From the NCBI GenBank assembly GCA_024276275.1, contig JAJRXM010000096.1:1-42278 (forward strand): a DNA stretch of 42,278 bases. Reading direction: 5' to 3'. Source of the DNA: Candidatus Zixiibacteriota bacterium (GTDB lineage: Bacteria > Zixibacteria > MSB-5A5 > GN15 > FEB-12). The translations under genes were made by a program, and so were the position numbers. The notes beneath the pieces are model-generated. The model was not told the DNA's origin and ran no database searches. It saw only the letters and a program-made list of their open reading frames with translations. Below, in pieces: positions 2,249 through 14,023 of this stretch (the stretch's first letter is position 1; each line of letters begins with the position of its first letter).

Positions 2249-3229
2249 TTAGAGCCTATATTTCCGACGATTTTGAGAGTTTGCCATAGTATTTATTTCA
2301 ATTTCGTCATCATTTCTAAAAAAAGCAATATGGACAATATTTTTGTCATGTACTAAAGCTGAACCAACAATATTATTACCAGTGAATCGATAATCTTTCC
2401 CATATCCAACCGTATCATGTTCACTTTGGGTAGCTAAAGTTGCTACTTGAAAAAATTCACGAGCAAGATGTTCATTTTCTTCATTTGAATTTTTATCTTC
2501 GGATAATATAGCGTCCATTGCGTAACTTTTTAGAAGTTTAGGATATATTTTTTCAAAAGCTTTCGCACGCGAGACAATGTCAAAACCTACCACTTTGTTA
2601 TTAATGATCACAAGAAGTCCTGTCTGCTTTTCAGATTTTGAAAATGAGTGAGTATATTCATCTAGCAAATGTTGTCTAGACTCAAAAACATCCCTCATTG
2701 AATCAGTAGCTGAATTAACATGAGCTTTTGATGATAGTTTGTTAATTTCCTGCCAAATTTTACCTTGATCTGATCGAGCTCCTTTGTTTTCCCGCAGTGA
2801 ATGAGAGACTGAGAGAGTTTTATGAAGGCGAACACTTGGTGACATAACCGTTCCTGAATCAGCAAACACTTCCGAATTATATGACCAACGTCCCTGTTCA
2901 GTACAACTTACCGGCACTATAGTTTCTGATTTTTCTTTTAGTAAAATTGAACTGTTTAAAACTCGATTCTGTTTTGCACCTACTAATTCCTCACCATCTA
3001 AAAGTAAAACCGGCTTATCAGCATCATTTATTACTTTTAAGTCTGGTACAGAACCAGTTTCTGAAATCTCAGCAACTTTTAGTAGATTTAATTCCAATGC
3101 TTCAGAAAGAACCATGTAATCGACATTGGCATCTTGTCCATTCAGAATTGGGAAAACTGTCATCTGTTTATGCTTTTGGGGAACTCCAAGCACAACGTTA
3201 AAGAGATAATCTTTTAATACTGTCTTCAT
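2249..3229 (-). CDS. ARPP-1 / DUF6569-like domain protein
   Basis: The 326-aa protein has the hallmark middle block GEELVGAKQNRVLN, followed by LLKEKSETIVPVSCTEQGRW, which I associate with the ARPP-1 (DUF6569) family. The biochemical role of that family is unknown to me; it recurs near conflict-system genes. No signal peptide or membrane helix is seen, so it is probably cytoplasmic. A near-perfect Shine-Dalgarno sequence (AGGAGGT) lies just before the ATG. It heads a tight leftward set with the 47-aa membrane protein and the NERD helicase. The family call rests on recalled motifs, not on a search. Confidence 0.72.
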   Translation of the reverse strand: MKTVLKDYLFNVVLGVPQKHKQMTVFPILNGQDANVDYMVLSEALELNLLKVAEISETGSVPDLKVINDADKPVLLLDGEELVGAKQNRVLNSSILLKEKSETIVPVSCTEQGRWSYNSEVFADSGTVMSPSVRLHKTLSVSHSLRENKGARSDQGKIWQEINKLSSKAHVNSATDSMRDVFESRQHLLDEYTHSFSKSEKQTGLLVIINNKVVGFDIVSRAKAFEKIYPKLLKSYAMDAILSEDKNSNEENEHLAREFFQVATLATQSEHDTVGYGKDYRFTGNNIVGSALVHDKNIVHIAFFRNDDEIEINTMANSQNRRKYRL

Positions 3230-3657: not shown

Positions 3658-3686
3658 TTGCTATGCGTCATACAATGACGTATATA
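3658..3686 (+). promoter_or_regulatory. Sigma-70-type promoter with a palindromic operator in its spacer
   Basis: TTGCTA at 3658-3663 and TATATA at 3681-3686 are separated by exactly 17 bases. The spacer holds the inverted repeat CGTCAT-ACA-ATGACG (3666-3680), which extends outward with TAT/ATA. A dimeric repressor bound here would block RNA polymerase. The WYL regulator starts 50 bases downstream, so autoregulation of the restriction operon is the simple reading. WYL regulators of other defence systems (BrxR, CapW) bind inverted repeats in this way. The site also lies between the two divergent units and could affect both. Confidence 0.55.
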
Positions 3687-3735: not shown

Positions 3736-4731
3736 ATGCCTGAAATTAAGCAAATAGAGCGATTGATCCGTATTTTGCAGCGTTTATCTCTATATAATGA
3801 GGTAAAAGTTAGTGAATTATATGAGTTTTTTGACAGAAAAGTGCCTAAACGTACTCTGCAAAGGGACTTAGTAGAATTATCCTGTGCTAATATTCCCTTA
3901 GTTACTAAACCTGGTACCGGCAAAGAGCTGATTTGGTGTATTGATTCCTCATATTTGCGTTTTATTCCGGAAACAATAGGCAGTCAGGAGCTTGTAGCCT
4001 CTTATTTTTTACAAAGATTGGCAGTTGTGACCCATGGCACCTCATTAGAAAAAGATATCAATACCTTAATTGATAAATCAAAACAGCTCATTTCACGAGA
4101 AGTCTTTCAATCACTAGAAGATTTAGAACCGCTTCAAAATTTGTTTGGATCAACTTTCTCAGGCTATATTGATTATACACATCACTCAACTACCATTGAA
4201 CAGCTGATAAAAGCGGCAACAAAAAGCATCCAATGCCATTTTAGCTATAATACTTTTTCTAAAAAAGATCTGTCTCAATTTGAAGCAGATCCTTATATGC
4301 TTGTCTATCACAAAGGCGCTCTCTATTGTGTTGCCTATATACCTTCACATGATAACTACCTCTTTTTAGCCATTCAAAGAATTCAGAAAGTAGAACTTTT
4401 AAAAACTCATTATAAAAAAAATAAAGATTTTGATTTAGATAAATTGCGTAAAGGCAGATTTGGCATTTATGGTGGAGATAATTCTCCTCCTCAAAAAGTC
4501 AGTCTCAAATTTAAAAAAGAGATGGCAGAAGTTATAGCAGAGAGAATTTGGCATCCATCACAAAAGATTAAAAAGCATCGTGATGGTTCTTTAACTTTAG
4601 AACTCAAAGTTATCATCTCAGATGAACTTCGTAGCTGGGTTGCTGGTTGGCTCCATTATGTAGATGTAAAAAGTCCTAGAGATTTACTCCACAGGAATGA
4701 CAAGCAAGGACTTAAAAATGCAAAAATATAA
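3736..4731 (+). CDS. WYL-domain transcriptional regulator
   Basis: The protein is 331 aa. Residues 1-65 form a DeoR-like winged helix-turn-helix (IKQIERLIRILQRLSLYNEV...PKRTLQRDLVEL). Residues about 140-230 match a WYL domain, with the degenerate core KGALYCVAYI, followed by a WCX-like C-terminal domain (LELKVIISDELRSWVAGWL). WYL domains sense nucleic-acid or nucleotide ligands and often control phage defence. The ATG has a good GAGGAAAG site. It is the first gene of a likely 9.8-kb operon and its 3' end overlaps the next gene by 14 bases. The palindrome at 3666-3680 is the likely binding site. Confidence 0.88.
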   Translation: MPEIKQIERLIRILQRLSLYNEVKVSELYEFFDRKVPKRTLQRDLVELSCANIPLVTKPGTGKELIWCIDSSYLRFIPETIGSQELVASYFLQRLAVVTHGTSLEKDINTLIDKSKQLISREVFQSLEDLEPLQNLFGSTFSGYIDYTHHSTTIEQLIKAATKSIQCHFSYNTFSKKDLSQFEADPYMLVYHKGALYCVAYIPSHDNYLFLAIQRIQKVELLKTHYKKNKDFDLDKLRKGRFGIYGGDNSPPQKVSLKFKKEMAEVIAERIWHPSQKIKKHRDGSLTLELKVIISDELRSWVAGWLHYVDVKSPRDLLHRNDKQGLKNAKI

Positions 4732-7700
4732 TGGCAAGTTACTATTTTCAGCAACAGACCTCTGTAATTATTTAGAGTGTCCTCATCTGACCAATCTTTC
4801 CTTAATTGATCTTGATACACCTCTTGAAAAAGATGCAATAGATGAAGAAGTTGAACTACTTCAAAAAATGGGTTTAAAACATGAACAAGATTATTTTGAG
4901 AAACTAAAAAGTTCAAATAAATCGTGTATAAACTTATCAGATATTAAAGGGAGTTATGAAGAAAAATTCACCACAAACGTTGAAGCTTTACGCAAAGCTC
5001 CAGATGTTTTATTTCAATCTTTTCTTCTAAAAGATTCATTTATTGGCTACGCTGATTTTTTAATAAAAAATGAGACGGCTTCAAAATTAGGTGATTTCTC
5101 TTATGAAGTCTTAGATACAAAACTTGCCAAACAAGCTAAGCCATATTACATCATTCAGCTCTGCCTCTCCTCCGAATTGCTTTCCAATGTACAAGGTATC
5201 ACCCCTGAAAAAATATATGTTGCACTAGGATCTGGTGAAACGGAATCTTTTTATCTAAAAGATTATGATAAATATTTTAATCAACTCAAAAGTCAGTTCT
5301 TAGAACATATTCAAAATAGAGCTGAAACCTACCCTGAGCCTTGTTCACATTGTTCTATGTGTGCCTTTAAAACAAGATGTCAGAACCAGAGAATAGATGA
5401 CGATCATCTCTCTTTAGTTGCCAATATGAGAAAATCACAAATAAAAAAATTATTCTCAGCTGATATAACAACCTTAGAGAACTTAGCCCTAACAAAGCTT
5501 GAAGCCGTTAAAGGGATTGGTTTTGATACTTTTAAGAGACTAAAAAAACAGGCACAACTTCAATATGAAAAACGGATTTCAGGTGAAGATAAAGTTCATG
5601 TTTTTACAAAAATAAAAAACAATACCGGCTTTTTTCTTTTGCCAGAGCCAGATGAAGGTGATCTCTATTTTGATATAGAAGGTGATCCGCATTATCAAGA
5701 TGGTTTAGAATATCTTTTTGGACTTATAGCCTATAATGATAATAATGAAAAATTTATAGATATCTGGTCATATAATCATAAAGAAGAAAAAGCGTCATTT
5801 GAGAAACTGATTAGATACTTTATTGAACGTCTTAAAAAATATCCTAAGATGCATATTTACCACTATGCCAGTTATGAAGAAACTGCCTTAAAAAGACTCA
5901 TGTCAAAATATGGAACGATGGAAAAGGAAGTTGATCATCTGCTGCGCCAGAAAGTTTTGGTAGATTTATACAAAGTTGTTCGCCATAGCATCCAGGTATC
6001 AGAACCAGCTTATTCAATCAAAAATTTAGAAACGTTCTACATGGGAAAAAGAGAGGCAGAAGTTACTTCAGCAGGTGCCAGTATCCTCTATTTTGAAAAG
6101 TATCTTGCCACTGGTGACAAAAAATATATCAAAGATCTGTATGATTATAATTTAGATGATTGCCGTTCGACGGTTCTATTAAGAGATTGGTTAGTCGGTA
6201 TAAGGAAAAAACATCAATTTGAACTAGAAGAATTAGAACGTGATGATTTTGGGACCACAGATAACCCAGATATTGATAAACTTTTAGAGTTTGAAAAGAA
6301 GTTATTAACTGGATTACCTTTAGATGAGGTTGATTACTCTACCGAGCATAAAATACGTAGGCTACTTTTTAATTTGGCTGATTTTTATAGACGCCAAGCG
6401 AAACCACAATTCTGGGAAATGTTTTCCAGACAAAATATGACCACGGAAGAACTTATAGATGATAATGAATCTATTGGTGGCTTAACTATCTACCCGAAGA
6501 TCCCACCTGAACTAGTGAAACGATCTACCGTTGTGACATACAAATATCCTGAACAAGATTTTAAATTAAAAGAGGGAGGTAGACCTCAAATAGCTGAAAC
6601 ATTAAAATCAGCTGGAACAATTGAGTTTTTAGATCCTGAAGAACAGATCATAAAACTCAAACGAGCAAACAAATCAGGTCCTCTCCCTGACTCTTTAGAT
6701 TTAGTTCCAGGCGGACCTATTGACACCAAAAAATTAAAAGAAGCACTTTGGTTCTTTATAGAAAAATATATTGAAGCAATAGATAATAAAGAACGACCTT
6801 ATCCTCATATCTTAGACTTTTTAGAAAAGAAACTGCCAAACATTAAAAATATAGAACCAGGACAAAATCTAATTACAAAAGAAATTCCTGATACAGATGA
6901 TTATATTAAACTCGCTAAAAAATTAGATAACTCATATCTCTTTATACAAGGTCCTCCGGGTACTGGTAAAACCTACACCGCATCACACCTTATTTTGAGT
7001 TTAATAAAAGATGGTAAAAAAATTGGCGTAATGGCTAACAGTCATAAAGTTATTAATAACTTATTGTCTGCTGTGGAGAAAAGAGCGGAGGAAGACAAGT
7101 TTACTTTTAAAGGTCTTAAAAAAACATCCTTTGCCAATGCTGATAGTGATTTTGATGGGGTTAATATAGAAAACTCATCAAAAAATGAAGACGTCATTGA
7201 TTCATTGTATGATGATGTCAGTCTCGTAGCTGGTACAGCATGGTTTTTTTCAAGCTTTTATGAACCAAAGCTTGACTATCTTTTTATTGATGAAGCAGGT
7301 CAGATTTCATTAGCATACTTTATCTCAGCAGCAATCTCAGCTAAAAATGTAATTTTAGTAGGCGATCAGATGCAACTAGCCCAACCTACTCAAGGTGTGC
7401 ATCCTGGTGAGTCCGGTTTATCAGTTTTAGACTACTTACTTCAAGGACGTCATACTGTACCGCCTCATGACGGACTTTTATTATCCACAACTTACCGTAT
7501 GCATCCATCGATTTGTACCTTTATTTCAGACGCTATATATGATGGTCGTATTAGATCACTTGATAAACTTAAGAACCAAAAGCTACAAATTGAAAATGAA
7601 GAACATATTTCTGAAAATGGTATCCTCTGTCATCTTGTCGATCATGAAGATTCAACTCAAAAATCAGATGAGGAAGCAGAACATATTAAAACTCTTTATG

Positions 7701-8092
7701 ACTTACTTCTCAAAAAGAAATTTTATGATCAAGATAACAAAGAACATCCAATAACTTTTGAGAACATCTTAATAGTGTCACCATATAACATGCAGGTTAA
7801 TAACTTAAAAAGAGTTTTAGGAAAAGAAGCAAGAGTTGGCACAGTAGATAAATTCCAAGGGCAAGAAGCGGAAGTAGTCATTGTATCAATGGCAACCTCA
7901 AACCCTGATGATATCCCGCGTGGGATGCATTTTCTATTTAGTCAGAACAGATTAAACGTTTCTATCTCAAGAGCAAAATGTTTATCAATCTTGGTATCTT
8001 CACCAAAACTATTTAGCGCTAGGTGTAATCAGATAGAGCAGATGAGATTAGTAAATACATTATGTTGGTTAAGAGAATATAGTAAAATATAA
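4718..8092 (+). CDS. Cas4/RecB-like nuclease, RNase H-like exonuclease and SF1 helicase fusion (TM0106-type)
   Basis: The protein is about 1124 aa with three parts. Residues 1-220 are a TM0106-type RecB nuclease: FSATDLCNYLECPHLTNL at the start, a PD-(D/E)XK-like core (YEVLDTK) and a cysteine cluster CSHCSMCAFKTRC, which with the early cysteines could bind an Fe-S cluster as in Cas4/AddB. Residues about 310-490 look like an RNase H-fold exonuclease of the YprB type (DLYFDIEGDP ... YNLDDC). The C-terminal part is an Upf1/Dna2-like SF1 helicase: GPPGTGKT (about 745), FIDEAGQ (about 854), GDQMQLAQP, TTYRMHPSI, TVDKFQGQEAEVVIVS and NVSISRAK. Role: probably processing of foreign DNA. The ATG at 4718 (AAGGA 7 bases upstream) is preferred to 4697. 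Confidence 0.87.
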   Translation: MQKYNGKLLFSATDLCNYLECPHLTNLSLIDLDTPLEKDAIDEEVELLQKMGLKHEQDYFEKLKSSNKSCINLSDIKGSYEEKFTTNVEALRKAPDVLFQSFLLKDSFIGYADFLIKNETASKLGDFSYEVLDTKLAKQAKPYYIIQLCLSSELLSNVQGITPEKIYVALGSGETESFYLKDYDKYFNQLKSQFLEHIQNRAETYPEPCSHCSMCAFKTRCQNQRIDDDHLSLVANMRKSQIKKLFSADITTLENLALTKLEAVKGIGFDTFKRLKKQAQLQYEKRISGEDKVHVFTKIKNNTGFFLLPEPDEGDLYFDIEGDPHYQDGLEYLFGLIAYNDNNEKFIDIWSYNHKEEKASFEKLIRYFIERLKKYPKMHIYHYASYEETALKRLMSKYGTMEKEVDHLLRQKVLVDLYKVVRHSIQVSEPAYSIKNLETFYMGKREAEVTSAGASILYFEKYLATGDKKYIKDLYDYNLDDCRSTVLLRDWLVGIRKKHQFELEELERDDFGTTDNPDIDKLLEFEKKLLTGLPLDEVDYSTEHKIRRLLFNLADFYRRQAKPQFWEMFSRQNMTTEELIDDNESIGGLTIYPKIPPELVKRSTVVTYKYPEQDFKLKEGGRPQIAETLKSAGTIEFLDPEEQIIKLKRANKSGPLPDSLDLVPGGPIDTKKLKEALWFFIEKYIEAIDNKERPYPHILDFLEKKLPNIKNIEPGQNLITKEIPDTDDYIKLAKKLDNSYLFIQGPPGTGKTYTASHLILSLIKDGKKIGVMANSHKVINNLLSAVEKRAEEDKFTFKGLKKTSFANADSDFDGVNIENSSKNEDVIDSLYDDVSLVAGTAWFFSSFYEPKLDYLFIDEAGQISLAYFISAAISAKNVILVGDQMQLAQPTQGVHPGESGLSVLDYLLQGRHTVPPHDGLLLSTTYRMHPSICTFISDAIYDGRIRSLDKLKNQKLQIENEEHISENGILCHLVDHEDSTQKSDEEAEHIKTLYDLLLKKKFYDQDNKEHPITFENILIVSPYNMQVNNLKRVLGKEARVGTVDKFQGQEAEVVIVSMATSNPDDIPRGMHFLFSQNRLNVSISRAKCLSILVSSPKLFSARCNQIEQMRLVNTLCWLREYSKI

Positions 8093-8108
8093 AATGTGAG
8101 GTAATTAT

Positions 8109-9011
8109 ATGATTTGGTTCGCAAAGGAGTTTAGTAAAAAACTAAATAAGATCAAAACAAGTCAATTTACTAAAGAACAAGTAATGGTAGCAGAAGAAAT
8201 AATTCCACTCTTTTTAAATTATTTAGAAGAAAATGAAATTATAGAATTTTATGTAGCTGACTTTAAAGATTGGATAAAGAAAAATCATAAGGATATTGCA
8301 CCATTTGTTTCATCAGAAAAAATAAGTCAAGTAAAGTTAGCAAATCCAAATAAAAAAGTTATAGATGTACAAAATTGTTGTTATCATTTTAGTAGAGCAA
8401 AGAGTTTTTGGATAGAAGATAAAAAGGGAAAAGAAATAGTTCCCCTAGAAAAACTTGGGTCAACTCATTATAAATTAAAACCCAACTGGAAGGAAGAGCT
8501 TGGTATTGATGTTCTTGAAGTTACAACTATTGCTAAAAAGATACTAGAAGTTGAACAGAGAGATTTCACAGAAGAAACTGTATTTGATATGTCCAAAATT
8601 GAAGATGAAAGAAAGAAGCAATTAGCCTATATTACTAAAAGACAAGGTCAAGCAGAATTTAGGAAAAAACTTCTTCTTGCATATAGTTCAAAATGCGCAA
8701 TAACAGGCTTTGACGCCGAAGAAGCAATAGAAGCAGCTCACATTGTTCCTTACCTTGGAGAAAGAACAAATCATATTACAAATGGAATATTACTTAGAGC
8801 AGATATCCACACTCTTTTCGATTTCCTTCTTTTAACAATAGATCCCTCAAGCTTAGAAGTAGTTGTATCAAAGAATTTATTTAACACACAATATAAAGAA
8901 CTCCAAGGAAATCCAGTCTATTTACCTAAAGATAAAAGTAATCATCCAAACGCAAAGTCATTACAATATCATTTTGATGAATTTATGAAAAAAGACAATG
9001 AGGGTAAATAA
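8109..9011 (+). CDS. HNH endonuclease, restriction-associated
   Basis: The protein is 300 aa. The C-terminal half holds an HNH_2-type nuclease: KCAITGFDAEEAIEAAHIVPY, then TNGILLRADIHTLFD, with the catalytic His in AAHI and a second His in ADIHTLFD. The N-terminal ~150 residues are helical and unrecognised; they may form a target-recognition or winged-helix region. A linker segment EDERKKQLAYITKRQGQAEFR is shared almost word for word with the next gene, so the two arose by duplication of the nuclease half. The gap to the helicase is 16 bases and to the next gene 2 bases. It probably cuts DNA chosen by the McrBC or helicase partners; this is inferred. Confidence 0.85.
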   Translation: MIWFAKEFSKKLNKIKTSQFTKEQVMVAEEIIPLFLNYLEENEIIEFYVADFKDWIKKNHKDIAPFVSSEKISQVKLANPNKKVIDVQNCCYHFSRAKSFWIEDKKGKEIVPLEKLGSTHYKLKPNWKEELGIDVLEVTTIAKKILEVEQRDFTEETVFDMSKIEDERKKQLAYITKRQGQAEFRKKLLLAYSSKCAITGFDAEEAIEAAHIVPYLGERTNHITNGILLRADIHTLFDFLLLTIDPSSLEVVVSKNLFNTQYKELQGNPVYLPKDKSNHPNAKSLQYHFDEFMKKDNEGK

Positions 9012-9013
9012 GA

Positions 9014-9790
9014 ATGATTCCTAAAAATATAACCATTGATCATATTATAAAAGCAATAGAATATATTGATAAAAACGGTGTCCCTGAAAGACATAATAGC
9101 AATAAATATGAACTAAGATTTAATGGAGTTTCCAGATACCCTCCTCTATACCCACCTAAATATATAATAGCAGTAGCAAATAAAATTGCTAATAATGTTA
9201 AAATCAGCACCAGAGGATTTAATGCAGTTCAAGCAAAGGACCACATTATAAGTCTAAGACATGATAGTTTTAGGATCTATAAAAATGGAAAACTTGAAAC
9301 TAATCAATACTCAACAAACGAGAACCAAGACAACCCCGAAGCAAGTATTGAGACTACAAATTCTAACGATGATGATTTTACTAACATTAAAGACGAACGA
9401 GAAAAACAGCTTGCCGAAATTACCAAAAGACAAGGACAGCCAGAATTCAGGAAATCTCTTTTACAAGCATACCATGGTAAATGCTCAATTACTGGTTTTG
9501 ACGTTGAAGACGCCTTAGAGGCAGCTCATATTATTCCATTTTACGGAGAACAATCTCAGAGTATTACAAACGGAATCTTATTAAGAGCTGATATACATAC
9601 ACTTTTTGACTTATATCTTTTGTCCATAGATCCTTGAAACTTTGAAGTTGTCTTATCAAATAAACTAAAATACTCTCAATACAATGACCTTGATGGGATT
9701 GAAATAAACTTACCTGAAGATGAAAATGTTTATCCAAACAAAAAAGCGCTTAAATATCATTTTAATGAATTTATTAAACTGAATAAATAG
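9014..9790 (+). pseudogene. Second HNH endonuclease, interrupted by in-frame TGA
   Basis: The frame opens at 9014 and meets a TGA at 9635-9637, giving 207 aa. The same frame then continues without break to a TAG at 9788-9790, and the extra 50 residues (NFEVVLSNKLKYSQY...) align with the C-terminus of the upstream HNH protein. At the stop the paralogue has Ser (IDPSSLEVV versus IDP*NFEVV), so TCA to TGA is the likely change. The N-terminus (LYPPKYIIAVANKI ... ISTRGFNAVQAKDHI) resembles the ScoMcrA-like N-terminal head region of modification-dependent nucleases. The HNH core AAHIIPF...LLRADIHTLFD is complete before the stop, so a shortened product may still be active. Confidence 0.8.
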
Positions 9791-9812
9791 AATTAGAATA
9801 TAGGATTATATT

Positions 9813-12299
9813 ATGAGTTTAGAAACATTAGTAGAAAAAGTAGCAAATTACAAATTTTCTGATGATACTCAAAAAACCAGAGAACAAGGTATTCTTGATT
9901 TTGTCGAACAGTTTCCAAGAGAACAATTATCAAATATGTCTCTTGAAGAATATGCTCAAGGGAATGAAAAAAATTCATTTTGTTATTGGCTTGAGTTTAA
10001 AGGTATCTTATTTGGCATTGGTGGAGGTAACGCTTCCAAATTTGGAATATATAAAGGTAAAGATGGTAATTATTATTCAGGTGCTGGTAGCACAAGAATT
10101 ACATATAAAGAGGATGAGCTTAATAATTACTATGTTTCCATCAGAGAAAATATTCTAAAAGCTTTAGAATATACAGAAAATAATGAAATAGAGAAAATAG
10201 TTGAACTTGATATTCCGGTTTGGAATATGGTACTTCAGAAGATACTCAACCTATACAATCCAAACAAATTTATTAGAATTGGTGCCCCCAAAGTGTTAAT
10301 TAAATGTGCACAGGAAATTAATTTGAAAGATTGTGAACTTACAACAAAAAATTCTATTCTTATAAGTCACCTGATTAATGAAAAACTAATAAATCACGAA
10401 TTTTTTAATAATTGGTCAGAAGAAAAATTAAGTTCATTCTTATGGAATGAATATGGGAAAAATGATTCAGATAAAAACTACTATATTTTGGGTTCAAAAT
10501 ACGGGGAGGATAATAGTATAGATGTTTTTGATGATATGTTGAAAAGATCAGTTGTTTCAGTCGGTTTTGCTGATAACATAGATTTAACTGAATACTACTC
10601 AATGCCTCATGTTGAAATTATAAAATACTTAGAAAGTAAAAATGAGGGGAAGAGCTCTCAAACTGCTCTAAAGCATTTCATTTCATTAAATCCAGGCGAT
10701 ATAATCGCAATAAAATCAGATGGTTCACCTAAAGGGAATAATCCCTATTTAAAAATAATTGGATATGCCGAAGTAATTGATAAAAATGATGTTGTATATG
10801 AATACGACCCAGCTCCTGAAGGCTTAGGGCACATTGTACATGTTAAATTTTTAACTCCAAAGATATCAAAAGAATTTGAAATTGGCGGGTACGGTAGTAC
10901 AATTCATAAAATCTCAAATAAAGACAAAATAAAACAAATCTTTCCCTCAAAATTTATTACGTCCTCAGCTATTGTTAGAAATGAAACACCATTATCTTTA
11001 AATACAATTTTATACGGACCTCCAGGAACTGGAAAAACATATAAGTTAAAAAATGACTATTTCGCTCAGTTTACTGATGAACACTCCACTCAATCAAATA
11101 TTGAATTTTACCAGGAGTTAGCAAAAGAACTTACTTGGTGGGAAGTTATAGCTGTAGTGCTGCTTGATTTGAAAAAAGCAACAGTAGATGAAATATTTGA
11201 TCATCCTCTTATACAAGCCAACTACAACATTTCTCGGAATACAAACCCCAAAAGAATGATTCGATGGCGCTTACGTATCTATTCAAAAGAAGAGTGTCCA
11301 AACATACAATGTAAAAGACGTAAAGAACCTCAATTATTTTGGAAAGACAATGATGAAGTATGGTCTCTTGATGAAGAAATTGCCAAAGCAGAAGCTCCAG
11401 AGTTATTTGATGCTCTTGAAAGATATAAAACGTTTGTACCTCAGAAAAAACAGGAGAAGAGATACATTTTTACTACCTTCCATCAATCGTTTAGCTATGA
11501 AGATTTTATTGAAGGGATTAAACCTCATTTATCTGATGAAAAAGAAGATACTGAGGATTCAAGTTATCAGGATGTGAAGTACCATATCGCTAATGGTATT
11601 TTTAAAGAAATTTGTGATAAGGCAAAAAAGAACTCTCAAAAAGATTACGCTATATTTATTGATGAAATTAACAGAGGTAACATAGCTAATATATTTGGTG
11701 AGTTAATTACTCTTATTGAGGATGATAAGAGAATTGATACAGTTAATGAAATGGTGGCGACTCTTCCCTATTCCAAAGAAGAGTTTGGTGTTCCCAAGAA
11801 CTTATACATCATTGGTACGATGAACACTGCCGATCGATCAGTGGAAGCCTTAGATACTGCTTTGAAGAGAAGATTCTCATTTGTCGAAATGAACCCACAG
11901 CCAGAGCTATTATCTGAGAGTGCTTATAAGTTAAAAGATCTTGATCTAGCAACACTACTGACTACAATAAACAATCGAATCGAAAAGCTTCTAGATAAAG
12001 ATTACTGTATTGGTCATTCTTATTTTATGACCATTAAAGATATAGAGGAACCACTTTCAGAATTACGCACTATTTTCTCAAATAAAATTATTCCTCTTTT
12101 ACAAGAATATTTCTATGGTGATTGGGGAAAAATACTCTTGGTTTTAGGTAAAGGCTTTATAACTCAAAAAGACAATTCAATTAGCTTTTTAGCAACTGAT
12201 CAGTATGCTGATTTTGATGAGTTTGAATCTAAGCCAATATACTGTTTTACCTCACCTGAATCCTGGTCGATTGAAATTTTTAAAGGAATTTATGAGTAA
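9813..12299 (+). CDS. mcrB: McrB, GTPase motor of McrBC type IV restriction
   Basis: The protein is 828 aa. Residues about 400-800 are an McrB-type AAA+ domain: Walker A YGPPGTGKTY (about 402), Walker B YAIFIDEINRGNIANIFGE (about 612) and the McrB-specific GTP signature MNTADRS (about 670), followed by the arginine pair in LKRRF. Residues about 220-380 resemble an EVE/PUA-like modified-base reader (YYILGSKYG ... NPGDIIAIKS). The first ~110 residues (FCYWLEFKGILFGIGGGNASKFGIYKG) are a region seen in other McrB-like proteins. It is expected to translocate on DNA carrying modified bases and drive McrC cleavage. It lies 22 bases after the broken HNH gene and overlaps mcrC by 8 bases. Confidence 0.92.
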   Translation: MSLETLVEKVANYKFSDDTQKTREQGILDFVEQFPREQLSNMSLEEYAQGNEKNSFCYWLEFKGILFGIGGGNASKFGIYKGKDGNYYSGAGSTRITYKEDELNNYYVSIRENILKALEYTENNEIEKIVELDIPVWNMVLQKILNLYNPNKFIRIGAPKVLIKCAQEINLKDCELTTKNSILISHLINEKLINHEFFNNWSEEKLSSFLWNEYGKNDSDKNYYILGSKYGEDNSIDVFDDMLKRSVVSVGFADNIDLTEYYSMPHVEIIKYLESKNEGKSSQTALKHFISLNPGDIIAIKSDGSPKGNNPYLKIIGYAEVIDKNDVVYEYDPAPEGLGHIVHVKFLTPKISKEFEIGGYGSTIHKISNKDKIKQIFPSKFITSSAIVRNETPLSLNTILYGPPGTGKTYKLKNDYFAQFTDEHSTQSNIEFYQELAKELTWWEVIAVVLLDLKKATVDEIFDHPLIQANYNISRNTNPKRMIRWRLRIYSKEECPNIQCKRRKEPQLFWKDNDEVWSLDEEIAKAEAPELFDALERYKTFVPQKKQEKRYIFTTFHQSFSYEDFIEGIKPHLSDEKEDTEDSSYQDVKYHIANGIFKEICDKAKKNSQKDYAIFIDEINRGNIANIFGELITLIEDDKRIDTVNEMVATLPYSKEEFGVPKNLYIIGTMNTADRSVEALDTALKRRFSFVEMNPQPELLSESAYKLKDLDLATLLTTINNRIEKLLDKDYCIGHSYFMTIKDIEEPLSELRTIFSNKIIPLLQEYFYGDWGKILLVLGKGFITQKDNSISFLATDQYADFDEFESKPIYCFTSPESWSIEIFKGIYE

Positions 12300-13569
12300 T
12301 AAGAATAACATTATACAAGTTTTTGAGCATCAAACCTTAAAAGTCGATTCGGAGTCTAGATTTACTAAATCACACTTTAAGGCAATGGCTACTTATGGTT
12401 ATAAAACCCAGGAAAAATACTATACGGTAGGGAATGAACGGATTAAATTTTCTCAATATGTTGGTGTGATTCAAGTCAATAACTTAACAATTGAGATATT
12501 ACCCAAAGCAGACAATGCAAAAGTTGACGACACTTCCAAAGATAAGTGGCATGACGCCTTAATTAAAATGCTGAGGATTTGTAAACTTATAAAACTTGAA
12601 TCAATTTCTCATGCTAAGTTAAAACTACGTTCAGCTTCTATATTAGATCTCTACTATGATGCCTTTTTATCTGATGTGGAAAGGTTGGTAAATCAGGGAC
12701 TTATTAAGCAGTATAAAACAGTTGAAAAAAACCTAAATAAAGTTAAAGGAAAAATCAAGTTCAACGATCATATTCAAAAAAATTACATTCACAAAGAACG
12801 GTTTTATGTTGAACATAATATTTACAACATTGATAATAATTTAAATCAAATTCTTATTAAAGCATTATTGATTTTATCAAAAATTTCAACAAGTCCAACT
12901 TTTAATTCTCGTATTAAAAAACTTCTTTTACATTTTGACTCGGTTTCTGAAAAAATTATAACTAGCTCATGGTTTGATAATCTAAAATTTAATCGTAATA
13001 CTGAACGCTATAAGGATTCAATTGCTTTAGCTAAGTTAATCATCTTAAAATATAATCCTGATTTAAAAGGTGGAAGGGAAAATGTTTTAGCTATTTTATT
13101 TGATATGAATAGACTCTTTGAAAACTATGTCTATCGCAAACTAAAAGTCTTAGAATCTACTTCCCAAATACCAAATCTAAAGGTTAGGGAACAAATTCCT
13201 AGGCCATTTTGGGAGAGTCGTTATCTCAAAGCCTACATTATTATTGAATGTGACCATAAAAATTATGTTATTGATACCAAGTGGAAAGTGTTAAGAAACA
13301 ATTTCCCCTCAGATCAAGATCTTAAACAGATGTTCATTTACAACCTTCATTATGACTCCGAATTAAGTATTCTACTCTATCCAAAAACGACCCTTGAGAC
13401 CTCTAGTAAAAAACCGTTTCGAAAAGAACTCTTTCAAGATAGACACTGCCAAATTGCCTTCGCCGACCTTTTTGGAACTGATGATAAATTAAATGAAATG
13501 GTAGGAGAACAACTTTATAATGATTTACTTCGACATGAAATTGAAACAAATTCAAAAGAAGCTTCTTAG
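12292..13569 (+). CDS. mcrC: McrC, nuclease subunit of McrBC
   Basis: The start is the ATG at 12292, which has AAAGGAA 5 bases upstream and overlaps the mcrB stop by 8 bases (ATGAGTAA), the usual coupling for this pair. That gives 425 aa. Family marks: GVIQVNNLTIEILPKAD near the N-terminus, LKGGRENVLAILFDMNRLFE in the middle and the PD-(D/E)XK nuclease core with YVIDTKWK near residue 330. It is the endonuclease that cuts modified DNA once bound to McrB. No lesion is visible, so the McrBC pair looks intact. It is the last gene of the island operon; the tRNA-Asn remnant begins about 40 bases downstream. Confidence 0.92.
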   Translation: MSNKNNIIQVFEHQTLKVDSESRFTKSHFKAMATYGYKTQEKYYTVGNERIKFSQYVGVIQVNNLTIEILPKADNAKVDDTSKDKWHDALIKMLRICKLIKLESISHAKLKLRSASILDLYYDAFLSDVERLVNQGLIKQYKTVEKNLNKVKGKIKFNDHIQKNYIHKERFYVEHNIYNIDNNLNQILIKALLILSKISTSPTFNSRIKKLLLHFDSVSEKIITSSWFDNLKFNRNTERYKDSIALAKLIILKYNPDLKGGRENVLAILFDMNRLFENYVYRKLKVLESTSQIPNLKVREQIPRPFWESRYLKAYIIIECDHKNYVIDTKWKVLRNNFPSDQDLKQMFIYNLHYDSELSILLYPKTTLETSSKKPFRKELFQDRHCQIAFADLFGTDDKLNEMVGEQLYNDLLRHEIETNSKEAS

Positions 13570-13610: not shown

Positions 13611-13683
13611 TTGGGTTCGCAGCCTAAGATAGGTCTACTGACTGTTAATCAGCCTGCCGTAGGTTCAAGTCCTACCACCGGAG
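13611..13683 (+). tRNA. tRNA-Asn(GTT), good 3' half, degenerate 5' half; possible attachment site
   Basis: From 13637 the sequence follows tRNA-Asn: anticodon arm with CTGTTAA loop (anticodon GTT at 13644-13646), T-arm GTAGG-TTCAAGT-CCTAC (13659-13675), acceptor 3' strand CACCGGA (13676-13682) and G as discriminator. The expected 5' acceptor strand TCCGGTG is absent. The best candidate, TTGGGTT at 13611, pairs at only about 4 of 7 positions and the D-arm is poor. The 3' half alone is what tyrosine-recombinase integration at a tRNA leaves on one side of an element. It lies exactly where the defence island ends. Either a tRNA pseudogene or an attL/attR remnant is likely; a functional tRNA is less so. 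Confidence 0.5.
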
Positions 13684-14023
13684 CTTTTTTATTGCATGCT
13701 AATTAGTTACAATTCTCCCATCAAAATATCAGCACAAATATATAATCAGAGGACTACTGAGAGCTATAACTGTAAGAATACCATATCTCCTTGGACATAT
13801 TAGTTACTATGTTTAACTCATTGATAGTTCTCGTTGCCTGAATTAGGTGGATAAAATTTTGAATATTTTTTTACTTTTAATAAATTATTATCATAAGTAA
13901 CAATACCATTTATATTCATCCTGCCTTTATTAATAATTGTTTAGTTGGTTGAATTTTATTTCTCTTGTTGAGAAATGAAAACTATATTATTAGTTGTAAT
14001 ATAATCTATAATTATGGAAGCAA
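13684..14023. other. Non-coding, apparently decayed stretch after the defence island
   Basis: I see no supported gene here. The stretch starts with a T-run after the tRNA-like sequence, is AT-rich and has stops in every frame at short intervals. It connects the island to the frameshifted pseudogene at 14024 and may be remnant DNA left by integration or excision. Confidence 0.4.

Follow-up and report, generated by a model that had tools for sequence, protein, structure and literature searches.

A WYL-headed six-gene operon joining a TM0106-type nuclease-helicase, HNH endonucleases and McrBC at the border of a probably mobile island

Six co-directional genes on the forward strand, spanning positions 3736 to 13569 of the 42,278-nucleotide contig of Candidatus Zixiibacteriota bacterium analysed here (the window), were assigned by profile searches, in this order, to a WYL regulator, a TM0106/COG2251 nuclease-helicase, two HNH endonucleases (HNH1 and HNH2), McrB, and McrC. 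This six-gene operon is real. We consider it rather probable that the locus is a defence operon of a mobile island in which two exchangeable modules are controlled by a single WYL switch. Module A would consist of the TM0106/COG2251 nuclease-helicase and an HNH partner, and module B of McrBC. We class the locus with the type IV-linked defence operons, of which it is a variant.

The run begins with the gene for a WYL/WCX transcriptional regulator (331 residues, positions 3736 to 4731), which matched PADLOC WYL models and whose open reading frame overlaps by 35 nt that of the TM0106/COG2251 protein (1131 residues, positions 4697 to 8092, probable start at 4718). Gaps of 16 and 2 nt precede the genes for HNH1 (300 residues, positions 8109 to 9011) and HNH2 (207 residues, positions 9014 to 9637), respectively. 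The open reading frame of McrC starts at 12205 and overlaps that of McrB (828 residues, positions 9813 to 12299) by 95 nt. A start at 12292 is likelier, with AAAGGA just before it, and leaves an overlap of 8 nt (McrC, positions 12292 to 13569). The sequence-only reading had described six genes in one direction with overlaps or gaps of at most 22 bases. Gene number and direction stand and spacing is otherwise tight, but 175 bp separate the actual stop codon of HNH2 from McrB. The discrepancy arose because the HNH2 frame had been followed to the TAG at 9788-9790. An in-frame TGA (9635-9637) shortens HNH2, ending the protein 51 codons before the frame closes; beyond it, the frame is open to the TAG and can still be aligned with HNH1. 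Recoding of this TGA was ruled out, since other genes of the window terminate in TGA. An internal promoter ahead of McrB is possible; promoter and terminator scans performed no better than on shuffled sequences. All of the domains named in the sequence-only reading (WYL, nuclease, RNase H, SF1 helicase, two HNH, McrB, and McrC) were matched by profiles.

The TM0106 protein combines an Fe-S PD-(D/E)xK nuclease, an RNase H-fold 3'-5' exonuclease-like domain, and an SF1 helicase of the UPF1/DNA2 type. It belongs to the TM0106 nuclease family TIGR03491 (9.8e-89, 298 bits for a cut-off of 97) and contains RNase_H_2 (PF13482, 4.4e-29) and AAA_12 (PF13087, 2.8e-32) domains; the helicase part of the TM0106 profile matches the structures of SMUBP-2, UPF1, and DNA2. 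Aligning 16 TM0106 proteins shows that the window copy retains the RecB-type residues D120, D140-x-K142, and Q154, the RNase H acids, the helicase motifs GPPGTGKT and DEAGQ, and the Cas4/Dna2-like cysteines 28, 219, 222, and 228, a cluster absent from one homolog. With these cysteines and D120, D140, and K142, the label Cas4 previously given to the Fe-S PD-(D/E)xK part is acceptable. A TM0106-helicase encoded by a Piscirickettsia plasmid is devoid of the Fe-S cysteines. The COG2251 architecture has been noted before (PMC3985635). Eukaryotic Dna2, AddB, and Cas4 resemble TM0106/COG2251 proteins in their Fe-S PD-(D/E)xK nuclease and SF1 helicase features, although Dna2 lacks the additional RNase H-fold exonuclease-like domain. 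Assignment to Mokosh, which calls for the whole MkoA/MkoC protein rather than the helicase part alone, was rejected because the best match was to the helicase region (830-1122) of MkoA alone, the N-terminus being a TM0106 nuclease. No functional test of a TM0106/COG2251 protein was found in the papers that could be searched.

Both HNH proteins harbor an HNH_2 domain (PF13391; 6.4e-15 for HNH1 and 8.2e-15 for HNH2). HNH1 belongs to the same family as the HNH protein encoded beside the TM0106-helicase of another genome of the phylum (G056, locus L013; 34% identity). The HNH domain is shared with VcaM4I (6yex) and the wH-HNH modification-dependent endonucleases, whereas the N-terminal domains of the window proteins were unmatched. 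The modification-reader-like N-terminus that had been attributed to one of the two is therefore not established, the VcaM4I match being confined to the HNH domains. Single-sequence AlphaFold predictions of HNH1 and of McrB residues 1-390 both gave a pLDDT of 35 and no usable fold.

McrB matched AAA_5 (1.3e-14) and PRK11331 (1.3e-39) and displays the GTPase motifs expected of an AAA+ protein with an NxxD signature: Walker A at residues 402-409 (GPPGTGKT), DEINR, and NTAD at residues 671-674. McrC contains the PF10117 domain (4.1e-60) and matched T. gammatolerans McrC (6ut5_G, 8.2e-22). These features, together with overlapping mcrB and mcrC, are those of the type IV McrBC systems of E. coli K-12 and T. 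gammatolerans, from which the window pair differs by a PD-T4-1-like McrB N-terminus (residues 17-224), by the loss of the PD aspartate in McrC, and by its inclusion in a longer WYL/TM0106/HNH unit. McrC retains D357-x-K359, but the PD of its PD-(D/E)xK motif reads KA, with the aspartate replaced by alanine (codon at about 13230). An acidic residue occupies this position in all 20 other distinct McrC proteins in which the motif was found (18 PD, one AD, and one TD). McrC of the R. daejeonense and Leisingera operons has an intact motif. The PD aspartate is a metal ligand in PD-(D/E)xK nucleases, and its replacement implies that cutting by McrC was probably lost. The window McrC is homologous to its McrBC counterparts but probably unable to cut, provided that the assembly is correct at this base. 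The pair, previously called a complete McrBC, is complete in its domains but not in its active site. McrBC of the window may either be decaying or function as a GTP-driven sensor or motor, with HNH1 or the TM0106 protein cutting instead.

The damaged appearance of HNH2 and McrC is as compatible with decay as with design. A decaying island, in which HNH2 and McrC no longer work and the locus is being lost, is a possibility that we retain tentatively and that is compatible with the defence-operon reading for the ancestors of the locus. It would account for the TGA in HNH2 with an intact frame beyond it and for the KA of McrC, and such decay occurs elsewhere: on a Rhodobacter plasmid, a remnant of McrB is all that is left of McrBC behind WYL-TM0106 (L096, positions 11301-11699), and the WYL gene of an Aminobacter locus is broken (L098). 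Against it, the frames and motifs of WYL, TM0106, HNH1, and McrB are intact, and the draft assembly (100 contigs) could hold single-base errors. It is also conceivable, if rather unlikely, that WYL and TM0106 form the core of a modular defence family not described so far, to which one sensor or another can be attached; McrBC would here be a GTP-driven sensor that no longer cuts and passes DNA on to HNH1 and to the nuclease of TM0106.

A combination of McrBC, a UPF1-like SF1 helicase (CnuH), and a nuclease effector defines CoCoNuT types II and III, and the window resembles these systems in placing McrBC beside an SF1 helicase of the UPF1/DNA2 clade and a nuclease. CoCoNuT are defined by an NxD motif in McrB and by a UPF1-like CnuH with CnuE (PMC11090510); inactivated PD-(D/E)xK domains have also been described in them. 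Membership was ruled out because NTAD in the window McrB is NxxD rather than NxD. In addition, the window helicase carries a TM0106 nuclease and an RNase H domain at its N-terminus, and no CnuE, HEPN, or PLD effector was found at the locus. The prevalent McrBC partners named in a census are type I restriction-modification, DISARM-like, and methyltransferase genes, TM0106 not being among them (PMC11090510).

The WYL protein contains the WYL and WCX domains (PF13280, 2.1e-11; PF25583, 7.8e-11; both above cut-off) of BrxR/CapW-type regulators; its HTH was not scored by Pfam, and no relative was found in the PDB by sequence. BrxR and CapW are likewise WYL regulators located ahead of defence genes with a palindromic site upstream (PMC9122601). 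The palindrome CGTCAT-ACA-ATGACG (positions 3666 to 3680; wider form TATGCGTCAT-aca-ATGACGTATA, 3662-3684) lies 56-70 bp upstream of the WYL start. The exact form CGTCAT-N3-ATGACG occurs at a single site in its own 3.39-Mb genome and at a single site in that of a relative (G063), each time upstream of WYL, and at none in eight other whole genomes. Degenerate versions precede WYL in G062 (one mismatch) and G040 (two mismatches), and a comparable palindrome appeared in 5 of 300 first-order resamplings of the upstream region. Because the site is unique in two genomes, both times before WYL, it is likely to be an autoregulatory operator for the whole run. A palindrome close to WYL in loci L023 and L024 was discarded, as it falls within the TM0106 coding sequence. 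Seven genomes of the phylum that yielded no full-type TM0106 encode relatives of the WYL protein (42-56% identity), some adjoining PD-(D/E)xK or AAA genes and others in ordinary surroundings. In G121 (L144), a WYL ortholog lies between an AAA ATPase gene and a two-gene PD-(D/E)xK/UvrD-like pair, possibly another WYL-linked nuclease-helicase cassette.

The operon is located at the border of a DNA island that is probably mobile, as suggested by a tRNA-Asn fragment, a lower GC content, and absence from genus relatives. The fragment, on the forward strand (positions 13638 to 13690), begins about 70 bp past the McrC stop codon and comprises the 3' part of a tRNA-Asn gene and its flank, an island-boundary footprint. 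It is identical at 53 of 53 positions to the intact copy of the same genome (G000:C50:11925-11977, on contig C50); similarity extends over 130 bp at 88% (13638-13766). GC content is 31.9% to the left of 13637 and 35.6% to the right of 14391. The backbone gene that comes next encodes a SET protein; two relatives from the genus have a transporter gene ahead of it instead of the operon genes. The left end of the island lies beyond the contig. A similar fragment in G059 (L169, 6859-6911) suggests that tRNA-Asn is an integration hotspot in the genus. The same island encodes, on the reverse strand between 418 and 3596, a NERD-UvrD helicase close to a DRT-associated PADLOC model (positions 418 to 2076; RTasNERD-Hel, 8.8e-79), an ARPP-1 domain protein (positions 2249 to 3229; PF20208, 2.1e-101), and a 90-residue open reading frame. 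A reverse transcriptase gene could lie beyond the contig start.

Full-type TM0106-helicases are rare and patchy in the phylum: among 132 genomes, they were found in the window's own genome, in G056 (55% identity), and in G071 (54%, at a contig end). The G056 protein is the nearest full-length relative; its gene is followed by an HNH gene and flanked by an integrase fragment, with neither WYL nor McrBC at the locus. A scan of genome contigs with the single protein reached no further than mycobacteria. Plasmids provided 60 records covering at least 80% of the query. WYL adjoins the plasmid TM0106-helicase gene in Novosphingobium, Rhizobium, Mesorhizobium, Roseovarius, Paracoccus, and Sphingobium, and adjoins it also in Haematobacter, Leisingera, Rhodobacter, Aminobacter, and Sphingomonas. 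The alphaproteobacterial WYL proteins are only about 24% identical to that of the window, and WYL was therefore recruited separately. McrB and McrC follow the TM0106-helicase on alphaproteobacterial plasmids of R. daejeonense (L023), R. leguminosarum (L106), Leisingera (L095), and Aminobacter (L098), where the genes abut or overlap, and on an IMG/VR contig (L038); McrBC precedes it on a cyanobacterial plasmid of Acaryochloris (L094). Among 39 closer loci, which were chosen by similarity, include related rhizobial plasmids, and are thus not independent, McrBC was present in 7 and WYL in 18 (5 and 17 with stricter distance limits), the TM0106 core occurring without McrBC in 32. The window, cyanobacterial, and alphaproteobacterial McrBC cases fall in different clades of a TM0106 tree built by a quick method without bootstrap. 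On this tree, the McrBC label changes five times, at least four changes being forced by supported branches; 3 of 500 label shuffles were as low. The pairing of TM0106 with McrBC therefore arose or was lost repeatedly, McrBC having become linked to the TM0106-helicase more than once. As the two are found side by side in unrelated bacteria, the pairing is real.

Scans of viral contigs with the single McrB, HNH1, HNH2, and McrC proteins returned nothing. Profiles then led to viral McrBC loci, in which TM0106 was beside McrBC in none of 11 other cases. No other locus seen carried the full set of WYL, TM0106, HNH, and McrBC. The linkage singled out by the sequence-only reading is notable and partly conserved: its pairs (TM0106 with McrBC, with WYL, and with HNH) recur, and the TM0106-helicase and McrBC core, mostly with WYL, exists in other phyla, the six-gene set being seen only at this locus. 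That reading had left open one multi-layer system or two systems under common control. The latter is favoured by these sequence comparisons, because TM0106 lacks McrBC in 32 of 39 loci, viral McrBC lacks TM0106 in 11 of 11, and the cargo varies. The multi-layer option is the weaker one; taken to the point of an obligate complex of mutually dependent TM0106, HNH, and McrBC, it would explain the tight spacing, the overlaps, and the recurrence of TM0106 with McrBC, but it is very unlikely, as each component is found without the others in relatives and the complete set only here. The same counts, and the varying cargo, could reflect ordinary clustering in defence islands, with a TM0106 core and McrBC lying side by side and functionally unlinked, since islands gather such genes anyway. 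We judge this unlikely in view of the abutting co-directional genes in unrelated lineages, the at least four forced changes, and the single operator predicted for the whole run.

The cargo located behind WYL-TM0106 is highly variable. It consists of Tiamat TmtA in L026 and L029 and of a multiubiquitin-ThiF (E1) gene in L025. L028 has an SbcCD-like pair there, and such a pair lies upstream in L024 and L097; nothing defence-like was found behind WYL-TM0106 in L027. Multiubiquitin-E1(-E2)-DUF6527 cassettes directly adjoin the TM0106-helicase in L018 and L025. The helicase is also carried by Piscirickettsia, Vibrio, and Legionella plasmids (L022, L102, and L101), and the gene follows BREX genes in Vibrio p123. 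This plasmid- and island-borne distribution, beside BREX, Tiamat, ubiquitin-like, and type I restriction-modification genes, and the rarity of full-type TM0106 in the phylum (the window's own genome and 2 of 132) make it improbable that the operon serves DNA repair, with WYL as a damage-response switch of the PafBC/DriD type. Such a role would be in keeping with the Dna2-like architecture, with the 20 of 296 actinobacterial genomes that encode a TM0106-helicase without WYL or adjacent McrBC, and with other WYL proteins that govern damage responses (PMC9122601). The actinobacterial copies, and the nearest full-length relative in G056 without WYL and McrBC, also count against the defence-operon reading, as do the separate recruitment of the alphaproteobacterial WYL and the damaged look of HNH2 and McrC. 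In its favour are the recurrence of TM0106 with McrBC, the abutting or overlapping genes of the alphaproteobacterial copies, the forced label changes on the tree, the operator-like site unique in two genomes, the defence-like neighbours, the island footprint, the cargo swaps, and the HNH gene after TM0106 in G056.

For this defence operon, gene order, domains, conserved motifs, recurrent pairs, and a genome-unique operator-like site are observed, and we infer repression, a role against phages, the substrate, and a division of labour. By analogy with BrxR and CapW, the WYL protein would bind at 3666-3680 and hold down expression of the whole transcription unit until a ligand appears upon infection or DNA damage. 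Once the unit is induced, domain logic suggests that HNH1 and McrB would recognise and cut foreign, probably modified, DNA or translocate on it. The Dna2/AddB-like TM0106 protein would then load on ends or single strands and unwind and degrade them, preventing repair. Direct cooperation between TM0106 and McrBC is conjectural. The locus resembles a set of interchangeable anti-virus modules more than a single fixed machine. COG2251/TM0106, a widespread nuclease-helicase, thereby gains a testable home, and McrBC, usually treated as stand-alone, proves to have been combined repeatedly in operons with a motor that probably degrades DNA ends. With a genome-unique predicted operator, what the WYL protein senses becomes directly testable.
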